Made by a program: the position numbers and the translations under genes. From Chthonomonadales bacterium (GTDB lineage: Bacteria > Armatimonadota > Chthonomonadetes > Chthonomonadales > CAJBBX01), in the NCBI GenBank assembly GCA_020849275.1, contig JADLGO010000065.1, positions 62,001 through 126,000 on the forward strand: a DNA stretch of 64,000 bases, written 5' to 3'. Under the pieces are notes generated by a model. That model was not told the DNA's origin, searched no databases, and saw only the letters and a list, made by a program, of their open reading frames with translations. This document shows, piece after piece, positions 21,788 through 30,556 of the stretch. How positions within the stretch are numbered: the stretch's first letter is position 1; every line of letters begins with the position of its first letter.

Positions 21788-22267
21788 CTATCGCCACGGC
21801 GCAGCCCGAGCGCGCGCCGCGCGCATACGCGCTGCCAGCGCGCACACGGCAGCGGCGGCTGCCGCGCCCGACACGTCGATCAGCACATCCACGGGAGAAG
21901 GGGTGCGAGTCGCGACGAAGGCCTGATGGAGCTCGTCGGAGGCCGCGTAGAGCGCGGCGAGCGTGAGGGTTCGCCGCGCGCAGCGCTGCGGGTCGCGCAT
22001 GCCCGACACGCGGAGCGCCAACCAGACAAGACAAGCGAGGACGAAGTAGACGGTGAAGTGGGCGGCCTTGCGTACGACGAAGTTGGCCGCATCGAGCTGC
22101 GTCGGCGAAAGGGACTCCAGCCATCGCGGCGCCATAAGGCCCAGCGTGGTCCGCAGGAGCCATTGGGAGTTCGGGCTGCTTCCAGCGTCCGATGAGAGGA
22201 TGAAGATGACCGCTGCCCAGAGGGCGGCCGGGAGCGAGGCGACGAGCGTGCGCGCGCGCGAGCTCAC
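21788..22267 (-). CDS. VanZ-like membrane protein
   Basis: 159 residues with four hydrophobic segments (about 10-24, 70-88, 98-112 and 128-148). The signature 'KAAHFTVYFVLACLVW' followed by 'ALYAASDELHQAFVATRTPS' and 'DVLIDVSGA' is that of the VanZ family; the first member is linked to teicoplanin resistance, but most are of unknown function. The start overlaps the M61 peptidase stop by four bases (ATGA). Confidence 0.88.
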   Translation of the reverse strand: MSSRARTLVASLPAALWAAVIFILSSDAGSSPNSQWLLRTTLGLMAPRWLESLSPTQLDAANFVVRKAAHFTVYFVLACLVWLALRVSGMRDPQRCARRTLTLAALYAASDELHQAFVATRTPSPVDVLIDVSGAAAAAAVCALAARMRAARARAAPWR

Positions 22268-24069
22268 GGGCGGGGCGCGGCCGCTCTCGCCTCGTCATCC
22301 GCGCGAAGAAGGCCGCGCCGCACGGCCGCCGCCAGCGGGCTCGCCTCGGGCAGCGGGGCGAGCCGCGCGAACCCCGAGGCGCGCGAGCCGACCGTTACGC
22401 GCAGCCTCTCGGTTCCGCCGCCGCGCCGCACCCCGAAGGTGAGCTCCTGACCGATGCGGAGCGCGGCGACGCGCGCCTCCCACGCCTCGGGCGTCACGAT
22501 CTCGTCGTTCGCGGACACGATCCGATCGCCAGCCTGAAGGCCCGCCGCGTGCGCGGGCGATTCGTCGTCCACCCAGAGCACGTGGGTGCCGTCGCGAGCG
22601 GGCTCCACCGACATCCCGATGTAGGGCTCCGCCCCCTCGCCGGATGAGTACCGCAGACCGGCCTTCTCCATGACGTCGTCCCAGGGGATCTCGGCTGTCG
22701 AGCGCACGTAGCGGTCGTACAGTCGCCCCAGATTCGCTCCGGCCACCGTGTTGATGGCCTCGCGGATGGCCCGCTCACCGAAGGCCCGGTTTGCCTGTCC
22801 GTAGTGCTGGTCCAGCAAACGCATGACGTCGTCGAGGCCAGCGCGCCCGCGCGTGGCGGCGCGGATCTCCACGTCGAACAGCAGGCCGAGCATGCTCCCC
22901 TTGACGTAGTAGCTCAGGCCGCCGTACCCCATGCTGCCCCCCTCCCAGGTGCGGCGGCTCGCCTCCTCGGCGCTCACGCGCAGGCGGGCCGCGCTGCGCT
23001 GCAGATTGCGGATCCGGCCGGCCATCTCGTCGAGGAACTCCTGCTCGTCCGTGAGGCCGGCCATGCGCAGGAGCACGGAGGCGTAGTAGTCCGTGACGCC
23101 CTCGGAGAACCAGAGCGACGGCGTTCGCACGGCCCGGGTGTAGTCGAACGGCCCGAGCCCTGCCGGGCGGATCCGCTTTACGTTCCAGGCGTGGAAGTAC
23201 TCGTGCGCGGCCAGCTCCTGCCACTGGCGTACATGGGTCGCCGAGCCCGGTCCCAGGTTGAGCACGGTGCTGTTGCGGTGCTCGAGCCCGCCGGAGAAGC
23301 TGCCGCGAGACATGTGCAGGAAGAAGATGTACCGGTCGAATGGGGCTGACCCGAACAGGCGCACGCCGGCCGCGCCGATGCGGCCGAGCATGTCGGCGAG
23401 GCCCTCGCGGTCCACCTGGTCGGCGCCGACCACCACGGCCGAGAACGGCGTCGGGCCCACGCGGAACTCTACGCGCGTGAAGGCGCCGATCTGCAGTGGG
23501 CAGTCCACCAGTTCGTCGTAGCCGGTGGCGGAGAACGCGCGGTCGCCAGCCGGCGCGAGAGAGCAGGCCACCGCCCAGCCCGTCGGCGGGCTGACGCGCA
23601 GCTCGGCCGGGCTCTCCGCCCGCCCAACGATGTACATGAGCGCAGACGGGCCGTTCACGTAGCCGGTGGCGTCGTCCAGGTGGCTCCCAAAGAACCCGAA
23701 GCCAGAGTCGCGCGCGACCACCTGGTAGCTCGCGGTGACCCGAAGCGCGCCATCGGAGCGCACCTCCCAGCTCCGCTCGTCCGGCCGGGTTACCCTGAGC
23801 TCCCGCCCCGTCTCACCCCGCGCCGCGAAGCCCTCGATGTTCTTCTCGAAGTGGAGGATCTGGTAGTAGCCAGGTGTCCATGCGGGGATGGCGAAGCGCA
23901 CCGCCCTCGCCCCACCCGTCTCCGCGGAGACGGTCACCTGGAACCGGCGCTCCGGAAGGCTGGCAACGCTCACCTCGTAGAGGATAGGGCCGGCGAGCGC
24001 CGAGGCGCGGGTGGAGGCGGCTCCGACAAGGAGCACGGCGCACAGCAGAAGCAGGACGCGCAGTTTCAC
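22264..24069 (-). CDS. M61-family glycyl aminopeptidase-like protein with PDZ domain
   Basis: 601 residues with an N-terminal signal peptide (about 1-26). The M61 zinc site is intact: 'HEYFH' (289-293) and the third ligand Glu323 in 'FSEGVTDYY'; 'GGLEHRNS' (260-267) is another family mark. A PDZ domain follows at about 505-580 ('DESPAHAAGLQAGDRIVSAN'). It should act in the periplasm or outside the cell on small peptides. Translationally coupled to the VanZ-like gene. A -10-like TATACT lies at 24107-24112. Confidence 0.92.
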   Translation of the reverse strand: MKLRVLLLLCAVLLVGAASTRASALAGPILYEVSVASLPERRFQVTVSAETGGARAVRFAIPAWTPGYYQILHFEKNIEGFAARGETGRELRVTRPDERSWEVRSDGALRVTASYQVVARDSGFGFFGSHLDDATGYVNGPSALMYIVGRAESPAELRVSPPTGWAVACSLAPAGDRAFSATGYDELVDCPLQIGAFTRVEFRVGPTPFSAVVVGADQVDREGLADMLGRIGAAGVRLFGSAPFDRYIFFLHMSRGSFSGGLEHRNSTVLNLGPGSATHVRQWQELAAHEYFHAWNVKRIRPAGLGPFDYTRAVRTPSLWFSEGVTDYYASVLLRMAGLTDEQEFLDEMAGRIRNLQRSAARLRVSAEEASRRTWEGGSMGYGGLSYYVKGSMLGLLFDVEIRAATRGRAGLDDVMRLLDQHYGQANRAFGERAIREAINTVAGANLGRLYDRYVRSTAEIPWDDVMEKAGLRYSSGEGAEPYIGMSVEPARDGTHVLWVDDESPAHAAGLQAGDRIVSANDEIVTPEAWEARVAALRIGQELTFGVRRGGGTERLRVTVGSRASGFARLAPLPEASPLAAAVRRGLLRADDEARAAAPRP

Positions 24070-24224: not shown

Positions 24225-27200
24225 TCAGAACTCGGTCTTGATCTCGAGATTCGCGATCACCGAGTCCGGAGCCCCGTTCATGGAGACCGTGTACGCCGTG
24301 CTCAGCGCGAAGATATGGGTGGCGTCGACCCGACGATCGTAGCCCAGCGAGATCGTATGGCCGTCCGAGCGCTGGCCGTTCTGCGTGGAGAGGTCCACGC
24401 TGTAGCCGACCTGCACGGCGGTCTGCGCGTCGATGTGGCCCTGCAGCATGGCGCCGAGCTTCGACACACAGGTCGCCTTGGCCAGATCCTTGCTGGTGGT
24501 GTAGGCCAGCGAGAAGTCCAGCTTGCCGCCGACCTTTCGGGTGAGAGCAAACGCCGAGGACTTCAGCGGCTGCATGGCGTTGTTGGCGGCCTCGGGCAGC
24601 GACGAGTAGGTGTAGGTCAGGTTGGTCTGCTTGTCAATGCGGAGACCCACGTTGTAGTTTCGGACGAGCTGCAACTCCCCCCGGTTCACGTTGCGCGCCT
24701 TGTAGACGAAGCTGTAGTGCAGCGGCAGCTTGTCGTTCGGGTCGCCGACGATGGAGAGCTCGCGTGACTGGGCGCTGTGGCCCTTCTCGTCCAGGTTGCC
24801 GCTGTACTCGACGGCGACCTTGTTGTTGCCGAGCATGCCCTGCACGCGCCCGGCTACGGCCTGGCTGATCTCCTTGTGCTGGTCGTTGGTTGCGGCGTAG
24901 CGCAGCGTCGCCGTCGTGTCCTTCAGGCCGAGCAGGGTGATGGGCTTGGCGTTCGATATGCTCACGTCCGAGACCGCCTTCACGTTCTTGTCGTGCAGGT
25001 TGTACTCGCTGTAGGAGCCGGCGAAGTTCAAGTTCTTCGTCAGCGCGCCGTTGAGCGCGAACGACTTCACGGTGGCGTCGTTGTCGTTGTTGGTGTGCAC
25101 CTGAGCGTAGCTGCCGGCAAAGCTCAGCGTCGGGCGCGCCTGCCACTTCCATTCGACCGCGTCCGTCGTCGCGGAGGGATCGGATCCGCGATCCACCTCG
25201 AGGCGGTTGAACCGCATCGACAGCGCGCTGGACGCGCGGTAGTTGACGTCGACCTGCGTTGTGTTCTCGAAGTGGCCGTTGCCGAAGTCGACCCGCTTCG
25301 TCTCCGCCATCAGGTTGTTGGGCTTGGAGCGGTCCGTCGCGAAGTGAAGGAAGTTGGTGGTGACCGTCGGGTTCTGCTTGCCGCCAGCGATCGTGCCGAC
25401 GGTATCGCGGTAGAGGCTGAGCTTCATGCCCTTCTGCAGATGGTGGTCGAAGGTGATGGTGTTGTGCGTGACGCCGTCGGTGACCGCGCCCTGGCTGGCC
25501 GACGAGTTGCCCTCGGTCAGGTAGGACACGCGCGTGCCCGCGCTGGGCGCCCAGGCGGCGAAGTGGCGGAACACCTGGCGCTTGAGCGCGTCGGCGGAGT
25601 TGGCGGCGTCGTAGACGTAGGTGTTGAGCGTGAGGCCGCGTACGGCGGTCAGGTTGGCGGAGAAGTCCATCCGCTGGAACCCGCGCTCGGACTCGATGCC
25701 CTTGCGCTCGGCGTCGCTCAGACCGGCCATGTCGCCCGCGCGCGTGAAGGACTGGCCCGTGCTGCCCAGGTTCAAGCGCGCGTCCAGGCCGCGCGTGGTG
25801 TACGCGAAGCTCTGGCGGCTCATGCTGCCGTTGCGGTCGCCGGCGGTGAGTTGCGAGTACGCGAACGAGGTGCCCCGCGAGAGCGCCAGGTTCAGGCCCA
25901 TCGAGGTCCGTCCCATGCCGACCTCGTTGCCGAGTTGCGCGCGCTCGAAGTCGCTCATCGAGCCCAGCCTGGCGAACGACTCCGAGATGCTCTGGCTGAG
26001 ATAGTTGAACGAGTAGCCGCGGCCGTTGAGGCTGAGGGTGCGGCGCTGGACGTCGCCGGCGCCATCCTTCACCGCGAACTGGTTGTAGGCGAGGGCGCCC
26101 TGCTTGCCGAGGGCGGCGCCCATGGCGAGTTGGCTGCGCTCCAGGCCGGCCTCGCGGACGACCTGCTCCTTATCCTTGGCGGTGACGTCGGAGGCCTTGG
26201 CGTTCGGATCGAACATCCGGCGCATGCCGAGGGCGACAGCGGTCTTGTCCGCATCGCTCAGGTCGTTGAGCCTGGCAAAGCCGGCGTCCGTTTTGCGCCC
26301 GGCCATCATCAGGCTGAAGCCCTTGCCGTTCAGCTCGAGGAGCTGGTCGCTCAGGCTGCCGGAGGCGTCACCGATCTGGTTGCGGTTGAAGCCGAGCGCC
26401 GCGCCCTTGACACCGGTGAACCCCAGAGAGAGCTCGCTGCGACGCACGCCCTTCTCTCGTGCCCACTGACCCGCCTCGCCGTCCGTCAGGTTCTTGAACG
26501 CCGCGAAGCCCTGCCCGACCTCCTGCGTCTTGTAGCGCAGGTCCAGGGTGCTGGACTTGAAGCCGAGGCTCTGGCGCATGATCTGGCCCGCGCCGTCGCC
26601 GATGCGGTCCCAGTCCATCGCGAGGTTGGAGCCCTTGCCCATCGCCAGGCCCGCGCCAAACCCGAGGCGCTGGATTCCCCGCTCCTTCTCCAGCGCGGCG
26701 ATCCTGGCCATCGTGTCGGCGTTGGCGGCGTTGGCCTGTCGCATGGACTGGAAGCCGTTGAAGCTGGCGCTCACGTCCTGGAAGCGTGCGCTGAACGTTG
26801 CGTTTCCCGCCTTCAGGGTCAGGTCCTGTGCGATCAGGTGGCCGCTCTTCGCGGAGTTCGGGTCGCCCTTGGCGGGCGTCGCGCCGCCGTTGGCGGCGGT
26901 GGGCGCCACGCGGTTGCCATTGCTGCCGGCAGGCGTGCTCATGTAGAACATGCCCTTCATGCTACCGCCGCTGCCCACCTTGCCGTTGAGCGCGAGGCCA
27001 TAGGTGGTGAAGTCGAGGCCGCCGGCGCTCGAAACCCCGTAGCCGATGCTCAGGGAGGCCCCCTTCAGGTCTAGCGCCATGCCGGGCAGGCTCAGCAGGG
27101 AGCGGCTGCCGTCCTGGCCCTCCACGTAGCTGTAGTTGGCGGTGATGCTCTGGAAGCTGCGGACAGCCTCGGAGAAGAAGACCATTCCGGTGTTGTAGTC

Positions 27201-27521
27201 AACGAAGTAGTCGACGTTGGGTGTGAGCGTGCGCGCACCGACGCTGACCCGAACGCTGGAGGGGATGACGCCGCCGTGGGAGAGCATGTAGCCGGCACGC
27301 GTGCCGTTGCCGCGCAGCACCTCGGCAAACGGCTTGCCCGGCTGCGTGGGGTTTCCGTCCTTGTCCACGTAGGCCAGGGTCTGGCCCTGAAACGCGCTCG
27401 GCCGCTCGGCCTTCCAGTTGAGCTCGAGCGGCTTCTGCGCGGCGCTCCGCGCCCCGGCGCCGGCAACCATCGCGGCGATGACGATGCACTGATTCACGGC
27501 TCTGGCGGCTCTGCGCGTCAT
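24225..27521 (-). CDS. Large outer-membrane-type beta-barrel protein with five internal repeats
   Basis: 1098 residues with a signal peptide (about 1-28). Residues 40-135 form an N-terminal beta module ('VRVSVGARTLTPNVDYFVDY') of the kind found at the start of SprA-like and other large surface proteins. The rest is dominated by alternating-polarity strands rich in Gly, Ser, Asn and aromatic residues, and the chain ends in Phe, the usual barrel-assembly signal. Five repeats begin near residues 254, 339, 415, 516 and 592; each has a 'FxR/A...LSDA' helix segment, then Glu-x-Gly-x-x-Arg and strands. GGAGG lies seven bases before the ATG. It follows the anti-sigma-like gene by 46 bases. Cargo or ligand unknown. 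Confidence 0.82.
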   Translation of the reverse strand: MTRRAARAVNQCIVIAAMVAGAGARSAAQKPLELNWKAERPSAFQGQTLAYVDKDGNPTQPGKPFAEVLRGNGTRAGYMLSHGGVIPSSVRVSVGARTLTPNVDYFVDYNTGMVFFSEAVRSFQSITANYSYVEGQDGSRSLLSLPGMALDLKGASLSIGYGVSSAGGLDFTTYGLALNGKVGSGGSMKGMFYMSTPAGSNGNRVAPTAANGGATPAKGDPNSAKSGHLIAQDLTLKAGNATFSARFQDVSASFNGFQSMRQANAANADTMARIAALEKERGIQRLGFGAGLAMGKGSNLAMDWDRIGDGAGQIMRQSLGFKSSTLDLRYKTQEVGQGFAAFKNLTDGEAGQWAREKGVRRSELSLGFTGVKGAALGFNRNQIGDASGSLSDQLLELNGKGFSLMMAGRKTDAGFARLNDLSDADKTAVALGMRRMFDPNAKASDVTAKDKEQVVREAGLERSQLAMGAALGKQGALAYNQFAVKDGAGDVQRRTLSLNGRGYSFNYLSQSISESFARLGSMSDFERAQLGNEVGMGRTSMGLNLALSRGTSFAYSQLTAGDRNGSMSRQSFAYTTRGLDARLNLGSTGQSFTRAGDMAGLSDAERKGIESERGFQRMDFSANLTAVRGLTLNTYVYDAANSADALKRQVFRHFAAWAPSAGTRVSYLTEGNSSASQGAVTDGVTHNTITFDHHLQKGMKLSLYRDTVGTIAGGKQNPTVTTNFLHFATDRSKPNNLMAETKRVDFGNGHFENTTQVDVNYRASSALSMRFNRLEVDRGSDPSATTDAVEWKWQARPTLSFAGSYAQVHTNNDNDATVKSFALNGALTKNLNFAGSYSEYNLHDKNVKAVSDVSISNAKPITLLGLKDTTATLRYAATNDQHKEISQAVAGRVQGMLGNNKVAVEYSGNLDEKGHSAQSRELSIVGDPNDKLPLHYSFVYKARNVNRGELQLVRNYNVGLRIDKQTNLTYTYSSLPEAANNAMQPLKSSAFALTRKVGGKLDFSLAYTTSKDLAKATCVSKLGAMLQGHIDAQTAVQVGYSVDLSTQNGQRSDGHTISLGYDRRVDATHIFALSTAYTVSMNGAPDSVIANLEIKTEF

Positions 27522-27567: not shown

Positions 27568-28581
27568 CTAGAAGCTTCCGCGGATTACGTCAATGCGGAT
27601 CTCGCGTCCATCGGGTGCGGCCGTGATCGGACCGCCATCGCGGTCGGACGCGCGTCGGGAAAGCGTGCGCCGCAAGTCGGCGAGCGAAGCGATCTGGCCG
27701 GCGTCCATGGTGTGGCTTGATGCGGCCAGCACGATGCGGGCGGGCTGACTCGGCGTGGCATCGGCGGGCGCCACCGGCGCCTCCATCGGCGCAGGACCCG
27801 CGCTGGCTGCCTCGGGCTCGGTGCTGCGGGCGTCCGCCATCACCGGGGCGGGGATCGCCGGCGTCGCGGCGGCCGGGTCGACGGTCGGCACCGGCCTCGC
27901 GCGGTAGGTCACGCGAGGCGCAGTGGCCGCGGCCATACGGTGCTCGCGGCTGGCGCTGGCGGTCCGTGAGCGGCCCGCGGACCTCACCACGGCGACGCGC
28001 GGGGCGGCCGGGCGGCCGGGCGCGGAGGCTTCAGGGGCGGAGGCGGCCGAGCGACGGATCGCTTCGCTGACGGCGCCCATGTCCTCTCGGAGCGTCCGGG
28101 GAGTGTCGTGGCGGGGAAGATCGGCGACCGCGCCGGGGCCGGCCGATCGGTACTCGGCCGGGTTGACCAGGTTGCCCGTGCCCTGGTGAAGCGTGGCCAG
28201 GGTGAAGGCCGCGGCGGCGCCGGCGGCGATGAGAGCGCCGTAGCGGGCCGGAGCGGGAGCGAACGCGCGCCGCACCGCGGCCGCGACGCGGTCGGCCAGG
28301 GTCGGACGGTAGATGGTGGCGGCGAAGATCGCCTCGCGCAGGCGGGCGGGCGGCTCCAACTCGGCCACGTCGGCCAGAAGGGTCGAGGTGCCGCGCATGA
28401 ACGCCAGGTCGCGGGCGCACGAAGTGCACTCGGCGACGTGTGCCTCGACCACGGCCGTCTCGCGCGCATCGGCCTCGCCGTCCGCATAGGCAGAGAGCAG
28501 GTCCCATACCGTATCGCAGTGCATGGCCCCCTCCGATCGCCCGGCCTTCGCGTCCGGGTCATGGTTGAACGGCTGGTTCAT
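27568..28581 (-). CDS. Anti-sigma-factor-like membrane protein with zinc-finger N-terminus
   Basis: 337 residues. The N-terminus has the anti-sigma HxxxCxxC zinc motif ('HVAECTSCARDL', about 48-59), then a helical linker, one membrane segment (about 113-130, 'ALIAAGAAAAFTLATL') and a long Pro/Ala-rich periplasmic region ending in a small folded piece. This is the layout of a transmembrane anti-sigma factor, but no sigma gene is adjacent. The start at 28581 has GAGAGGA upstream and follows a plausible promoter. It is the first gene of an operon with the beta-barrel gene. Confidence 0.78.
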   Translation of the reverse strand: MNQPFNHDPDAKAGRSEGAMHCDTVWDLLSAYADGEADARETAVVEAHVAECTSCARDLAFMRGTSTLLADVAELEPPARLREAIFAATIYRPTLADRVAAAVRRAFAPAPARYGALIAAGAAAAFTLATLHQGTGNLVNPAEYRSAGPGAVADLPRHDTPRTLREDMGAVSEAIRRSAASAPEASAPGRPAAPRVAVVRSAGRSRTASASREHRMAAATAPRVTYRARPVPTVDPAAATPAIPAPVMADARSTEPEAASAGPAPMEAPVAPADATPSQPARIVLAASSHTMDAGQIASLADLRRTLSRRASDRDGGPITAAPDGREIRIDVIRGSF

Positions 28582-28607: not shown

Positions 28608-28636
28608 ATGATTGCGGTCTCATTACCCTGTGACAA
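28608..28636 (-). promoter_or_regulatory. Anti-sigma/barrel operon promoter
   Basis: Minus-strand -35 TTGTCA (28631-28636), 17-base spacer, -10 AATCAT (28608-28613). Predicted start near 28601, about 20 bases before the ATG. Confidence 0.5.
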
Positions 28637-29554: not shown

Positions 29555-30556
29555 ATGCGCCTGGCTATGGCGTGGGTGGCCGTCGCGCTGCTGGGAGCGG
29601 CCCTGTCCTCGGCGCCCGCGCAAGGGGAGGTCAAGGTGGAGAGGATCCCGTACATGGGCCTGCCGAACTGCTACCGGCTGTCGAACGGCACGGCCGAGGT
29701 GGTTGTCACCACCGACGTAGGGCCGCGGATCATCCGGTATGCTTTCGCCGCCGAGGGCGCGGAGAACGTGCTCGCCGAGCTGCCCAACGACGTCGTCACG
29801 ACAGAGTGGGGCGACTGGAAGCCCTGGGGTGGTCATCGGCTGTGGCTCGCCCCCGAGCAGAAGCCGCGCAGCTATGCGCCGGACAACGCGCCCGTCACGA
29901 TAGAACCGGTCGGCGGCAACGCCGTGCGGGTGACGGCGCCGAACGACCCGCGCACCGGCACGCGCAAGGAGATGCTGATTACGCTGGATGCGGCGGGCAC
30001 CGGGCTAACCATCTTGCACCGCGTCACGAACACGGGTGTCTGGGCCATCGAGGCGGCGCCGTGGGCCATCACGATCGTGGCCGGCGGGGGAATGACGATC
30101 CTGCCGCAGGAGCCCTACCGGTCGCACGACGACGATGTCCTACCGGCGCGGCCGATGGTGCTCTGGTCGTACACCGATTTCGAGGACCCGCGCTGGACGG
30201 TGGGCAAGAAGTACATCCGTCTTCGTTCGGACGAGCGGGCCGGCACGGCACAGAAGGCCGGGGCCATGAACAAGCAGGGCTGGGCGGCCTACCTGCGCAA
30301 GGAAATCCTGTTCGTAAAGCGCTTCCCCTATGAGGAGGGAGCGACCTACCCGGACTACGGGTGCAACTGCGAGACCTTCACCAAGGGCTCCTTCATGGAG
30401 ATCGAGACGCTCGCTCCGCTCCGGTCGATCGCGCCGGGCGGCACGGCGGAGCACACGGAGCAGTGGTCACTTGCGCGCAACGTGCGCGTCGGGACCACGG
30501 AGGCGAGCCTGGACGCCGCCATCACGCCGCTGGTGGGCGCGCCCGCCCTCCGCTAA
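29555..30556 (+). CDS. Secreted DUF4380-like protein
   Basis: 333 residues with a clean signal peptide (about 1-24, ending 'SSAPAQG'). The body is a beta-sandwich with 'VVVTTDVGPRIIRYAF', 'WKPWGGHRLWLAPE' and 'ILHRVTNTG', features of DUF4380 and of galactose-mutarotase-like folds that bind sugars. A Cys pair in 'DYGCNCETF' may form a disulfide. AGGGAGAG precedes the ATG. It starts 50 bases after purN and may be transcribed with it, though no metabolic link is evident. Confidence 0.75.
   Translation: MRLAMAWVAVALLGAALSSAPAQGEVKVERIPYMGLPNCYRLSNGTAEVVVTTDVGPRIIRYAFAAEGAENVLAELPNDVVTTEWGDWKPWGGHRLWLAPEQKPRSYAPDNAPVTIEPVGGNAVRVTAPNDPRTGTRKEMLITLDAAGTGLTILHRVTNTGVWAIEAAPWAITIVAGGGMTILPQEPYRSHDDDVLPARPMVLWSYTDFEDPRWTVGKKYIRLRSDERAGTAQKAGAMNKQGWAAYLRKEILFVKRFPYEEGATYPDYGCNCETFTKGSFMEIETLAPLRSIAPGGTAEHTEQWSLARNVRVGTTEASLDAAITPLVGAPALR

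Follow-up and report, generated by a model that had tools for sequence, protein, structure and literature searches.

A predicted giant outer-membrane barrel with four-strand repeats and its anti-sigma-like neighbor in Armatimonadota

In the FecA-FecR-FecI system, an ECF sigma factor receives signals from an outer-membrane barrel, relayed by an anti-sigma protein of the inner membrane. In the Dma proteins of Bacteroidota, an anti-sigma domain, a membrane helix, a disordered tether and an outer-membrane barrel are combined in one chain (PMC13088901). The largest outer-membrane barrel, as described in 2020, is that of SprA, with 36 strands and a size of ~7 nm (PMC7463736). Prototypical barrels grew by duplication of hairpins, and double-hairpin, i.e., four-strand, shifts have been described as well (PMC6340704).

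The locus analyzed here lies in a 64,000-nucleotide stretch (the window) of a contig of a Chthonomonadales bacterium (JADLGO010000065.1, positions 62,001 to 126,000) and consists of a gene for a predicted giant barrel protein and a gene for an anti-sigma-like protein of the zf-HC2 family. Like Dma, the zf-HC2 protein has an N-terminal anti-sigma domain, one membrane helix and a long disordered tether, with a barrel at the far end; in Dma, however, this chain itself continues into a C-terminal barrel domain, whereas here it terminates with one predicted strand and the barrel is the product of the next gene. Furthermore, Dma has an adjacent ECF21 sigma gene whereas sigma genes are rarely adjacent here, and both the anti-sigma domain (zf-HC2) and the phylum differ. 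The layout proposed here, in which a barrel would act on an ECF sigma factor via the anti-sigma protein in the inner membrane, is that of FecA-FecR-FecI, but no features of TonB-dependent receptors were matched and the contact would be made via a C-terminal strand. With SprA/Sov, the T9SS translocon, the protein in the window shares a short similar N-terminal stretch and the predicted organization as a very large single-chain outer-membrane barrel, but the SprA model spans 2319 positions compared to 1098 aa, and no helix-plus-four-strand modules were matched. Internal hairpin repeats and growth by duplication are features of the prototypical barrels, too; there, however, strand numbers mark separate subclusters (PMC6340704), whereas here a single orthologous family includes members with 3 to 7 units, each with a conserved helix.

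The barrel protein family and its repeats

The barrel gene and the layout of its product, in window coordinates, are as follows.

24225..27521, minus strand: predicted giant outer-membrane barrel protein, 1098 aa (open reading frame; phylum-wide family; no Pfam or PDB sequence match)
27438..27521, minus strand: probable signal peptide, residues ~1-28 (read from the sequence: hydrophobic stretch, small residues before AQK)
27111..27326, minus strand: N-terminal beta domain, residues ~66-137, with the motif 'DYxVDYxxGxVxF' (SprA-like match, residues 76-115)
26508..26762, minus strand: repeat unit 1, residues 254-338 (profile match; modeled with unit 2)
26280..26507, minus strand: repeat unit 2, residues 339-414 (profile match; modeled with unit 1)
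25977..26279, minus strand: repeat unit 3, residues 415-515, helix loop longer by ~25 residues (profile match)
25749..25976, minus strand: repeat unit 4, residues 516-591 (profile match)
25491..25748, minus strand: repeat unit 5, residues 592-677, third strand degenerate (profile match)
24228..25490, minus strand: C-terminal barrel region, residues 678-1098, with ~25 more strands by inspection (alternation scan, inspection)
24228..24263, minus strand: C-terminal strand with terminal Phe, a BAM-type beta-signal (family C-termini)

At E<=1e-10, the barrel family is represented in 205 of 291 genomes, usually by one full-length copy, and is phylum-wide in the one poorly studied phylum in which it has been seen so far, probably Armatimonadota. 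No member was detected among 247 Acidobacteriota genomes; a search of genome contigs with the single protein yielded just one 53-residue match in Acidobacteria, in a genome that had no match to the family alignment. There were no relatives above the cut-off in Pfam, NCBIfam or PDB, no Pfam family reached its gathering score with 16 family members, no match was detected in plasmids, and nothing on the family was found in the literature.

A sequence-only reading of this gene had suggested an outer-membrane-type barrel with five degenerate units. A repeat profile, derived from these five units and then improved with sequences of relatives, recovers the same starts in the window protein, residues 254, 339, 415, 516 and 592. 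When residues 246-680 are aligned to themselves, the best local score is 272, as against 47±8 (maximum 81) for 200 shuffled sequences, and this comparison, together with the re-pairing control described below, rejects a chance origin of the repeats. The pairwise identity among the units is merely 16-31%, so the repeats are old. The Glu-x-Gly-x-x-Arg step that the same reading had pointed out is real, with Gly in 98%, Arg in 79% and Glu in 68% of 511 aligned units, in which Gly22 and Phe1 are almost invariant; its 'RQ' turn strand is recovered as a weaker feature (Arg 48%, Gln 26%), and its insertion of ~25 residues in unit 3 is located in the helix segment.

The number of units varies between species, a point that the sequence-only reading had proposed to check. 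By profile count, 134 family sequences contain three (4 sequences), four (7), five (59), six (58) or seven (6) units; a few of these sequences are cut by contig ends, and the count may fall short by one if a unit is degenerate. Within the family of the window protein itself, most genera have five units and one genus (g6) has six, the extra unit being inserted before the last one and about equidistant from all units of the window protein. The family thus appears to form a natural series in which related barrels probably differ from one another by complete four-strand units, and barrel growth by duplication could be traced within it.

Strand order and barrel size

Each unit comprises one helix and four amphipathic strands, with hydrophobic alternation in columns 28-34, 40-47, 54-61 and 66-75 of the 511 aligned units. 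Strand pairing was analyzed by mean-field direct coupling over these units. Within a unit, antiparallel ladders connect b1 with b2 (i+j=72, mean z 1.8), b2 with b3 (101, 2.0) and b3 with b4 (129, 2.5), and across units, b4 is connected with b1′ of the next unit (98, 3.5); for the remaining strand pairs, the best register averages at most ~1.1. Recomputed over ten pairs, the b4-b1′ ladder scores 3.15, compared to -0.2 to -1.0 in 20 controls with randomly re-paired units. The loss of this ladder upon re-pairing indicates that the sheet continues through the units and that the helix is an excursion between two paired strands. An AlphaFold model of units 1 and 2, obtained from the window sequence only, contains a helix and four strands, twice, with modest confidence (mean pLDDT 57; ~70-80 over most strands of the first unit), and accordingly only its secondary structure is used here. 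The repeat region is thus an amphipathic antiparallel meander of the kind found in beta-barrel outer-membrane proteins, and the barrel with regularly spaced helical loops proposed in the sequence-only reading agrees with the alternation, the coupling ladders and the two-unit model.

On one side of the sheet, the helix loop contains insertions of up to 26 residues and the b2-b3 loop insertions of up to 38. Nearly all insertions are located in these two loops; the opposite turns are tight and rarely contain any in the 511 units. In known barrels, the C-terminus ends in the periplasm, and a count of strands back from the C-terminus, made by eye, places the helix outside. The helices and variable loops therefore probably sit on the cell-surface side, and nothing places the helices in the lumen as plugs. 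The C-terminal residue is Phe or Tyr in 103 of 134 family members (Phe in 102), within a strand of strict hydrophobic alternation; Phe is found within the last four residues in 122 of the 134 and is invariant as the last residue across a diverse set of 16 members.

Units 1-4 account for 16 strands. A strict alternation scan identifies 21 strands from residue 592 on and four between residues 140 and 253, but in each unit it detects only two of the four known strands; the actual total is therefore probably larger, an estimated ~50 strands by inspection. Closure of the barrel is likewise a prediction, and the same strands could be arranged in two smaller barrels instead of one. The full-length single-sequence AlphaFold model has a pLDDT of 34, and co-variation in the C-terminal region is noisy (132 sequences, effective number 96). 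With 3 to 7 units, the barrels should differ in size by steps of four strands, and the largest known barrel made of a single chain may be among the family members.

The anti-sigma-like neighbor

The gene preceding the barrel gene and the features of its product are as follows.

27568..28581, minus strand: zf-HC2 anti-sigma-like protein, ~337 aa, start codon inferred (PF13490, E 3.6e-12; relatives directly upstream of the barrel gene)
28414..28518, minus strand: zf-HC2 (anti-sigma zinc finger) domain (PF13490 match)
28186..28242, minus strand: predicted single membrane helix, YGALIAAGAAAAFTLATLH (hydropathy maximum)
27607..28185, minus strand: Pro/Ala/Ser-rich tether, ~190 residues, disordered (composition)
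27568..27606, minus strand: C-terminal strand EIRIDVIRGSF, similar to an outer-membrane-protein C-terminus (terminal residue counts; profile score)
28608..28636, minus strand: promoter-like site just before the gene pair (TTGTCA-17-AATCAT, 9 of 12; consensus match only)

In 44 of 92 loci, which represent many divergent families, the gene immediately upstream of the barrel gene encodes a zf-HC2 protein, and the two genes often overlap or are less than 70 bases apart. The layout of the zf-HC2 relatives is constant: a zinc finger, one membrane helix, a tether mostly of 165-275 aa and a C-terminal strand. A terminal Phe is present in 36 of 45 such neighbors with a membrane helix and tether, and the tail ends in Phe or Tyr in 44 of 53 relatives compared to 3 of 191 other genes that end in Phe; some tails of families f28 and f29 have no terminal Phe. 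Scored with a profile of barrel C-termini, the zf-HC2 tails have a median of 6.7, against -8.4 for other genes, -5.6 for shuffled tails and -8.5 for generic zf-HC2 proteins, a comparison set drawn mostly from beside ECF sigma genes. When the last residue is left out of the profile, the respective medians are 2.9, -5.6, -3.3 and -5.6. The tails are related to each other, such that these sequences are not independent and p-values overstate the differences. In our opinion, this conserved upstream gene, which was absent from the list of the sequence-only reading, is the more surprising part of the locus.

Only two zf-HC2 loci have an ECF sigma gene within 100 bases, and there is none beside the pair in the window. 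The large, Fimbriimonas-like family f14 retains the barrel with no adjacent zf-HC2 gene, which implies that the barrel can work without this partner. A gene with a weak match to DUF4380 (window 29555-30556, plus strand) adjoins the barrel gene in 21 of 92 loci, including loci of f14, which have no zf-HC2 neighbor. In family f6, a third gene (L058:13185-15389) is located just upstream of the anti-sigma and barrel pair and encodes a 735-aa porin-like protein (Porin_4, E 5.5e-8) that shares its N-terminal domain with the barrel protein. Just downstream of the barrel gene, the window encodes an M61 aminopeptidase with a PDZ domain (22264-24069, minus strand), which was rejected as a part of the system because it is not found beside the barrel relatives.

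A putative two-membrane signaling pair and its alternatives

The zf-HC2 protein and the barrel are best read as a putative signaling pair that would span the two membranes, which would be an unusual link between the cell surface and gene control. Taken as a whole, a modular outer-membrane barrel with a tail-docking, anti-sigma-like partner that passes its state to a sigma factor is the best explanation of the locus, and we give it an even chance. Under this scheme, the barrel wall would consist largely of tandem modules, each with four antiparallel membrane strands; where one module joins the next, a short helix would exit and re-enter on the loop side, which is most likely that of the cell surface. 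Each module gained or lost would widen or narrow the barrel by four strands in circumference. The zf-HC2 protein would be anchored in the inner membrane and, at the end of its long disordered tether, its C-terminal strand, which imitates an outer-membrane-protein C-terminus, would dock on the barrel, most simply by pairing with the edge strand at the barrel seam. A sigma factor would thereby be informed about the condition of the barrel or the surface, as in Dma but with two chains; both the docking and the control of a sigma factor by the pair are putative. The zf-HC2 tail suggests a second, independent two-membrane-spanning anti-sigma system, a type reported until now only from Bacteroidota (PMC13088901), and in the proposed system, the beta-signal would be used for signaling, not for assembly. 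A complete version of this scheme, in which a single chain would form a barrel of ~50 strands, exceeding all solved outer-membrane barrels in size, and receive the zf-HC2 strand at its seam, with barrel integrity or surface binding read as a pull on, or release of, the sigma factor and with size evolving by four-strand modules, is distinctly unlikely in all its parts.

Docking of the tail on the barrel is favored over its main rival, recognition of the tail by a PDZ protease or BAM. Under the latter explanation, the barrel would be an ordinary large porin or structural barrel, and the tail a degradation or sensing tag for a periplasmic PDZ protease of the DegS/AlgW/Prc kind or for BamA, reporting on outer-membrane-protein assembly in general without binding to this barrel. 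The C-termini of outer-membrane proteins are known ligands of DegS, and the zf-HC2 tail resembles such C-termini generally. The barrel without a partner in f14 is compatible with a tag, as is another zf-HC2 protein of this layout, also with a Phe-ending tail (EPREVMVELIQTRF), in the same genome (L230:5551-6777, contig C45), which stands alone: the next gene encodes an unrelated 689-aa protein, not a barrel. The tight linkage of the gene to this one barrel over many divergent families, however, argues against a general tag, as does the lack of the tail in generic zf-HC2 proteins of the same phylum, and we consider this explanation possible but rather unlikely.

A SprA-like translocon, that is, a wide barrel that exports folded proteins, would account for a barrel that equals or exceeds SprA in size and for the match of residues 76-115 to positions 595-634 of the SprA model TIGR04189 (E 5.5e-5). 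This match, which is also the only support for the 'modular translocator' of the sequence-only reading, covers 40 residues and scores 20.5 bits against a cut-off of 200; none of 31 genomes contains a protein above this cut-off, and true SprA identity is rejected. Moreover, the shared N-terminal stretch is present in other large barrels of the same genomes, the neighborhood clusters contain no secretion partner next to the barrel gene, and the repeats match no SprA model, all of which makes a translocon highly unlikely.

The chance that the repeats form a periplasmic or extracellular beta-sheet rather than a membrane barrel appears remote. There is no solved homologue or full-length model, and a Foldseek search against PDB gave no significant match; however, most of the highest-probability matches were porins, and the strict hydrophobic alternation on four strands per unit, the terminal-Phe beta-signal and the continuous meander across the units all favor the membrane. 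A surface array, as envisaged in the sequence-only reading, or an adhesin, formed by helical loops or plugs, is the least probable explanation: the helices and variable loops do lie on one, likely surface, side and the unit number varies, but nothing indicates self-assembly, and the helices are short, with each end fixed by paired strands.

Most relatives also encode a second conserved family of large barrel-like proteins of ~1000-1200 aa (L231:5511-8645, L241:4699-8028, L247:3638-6829); these proteins match the SprA-type N-terminal domain more than once and have C-termini that end in Phe.
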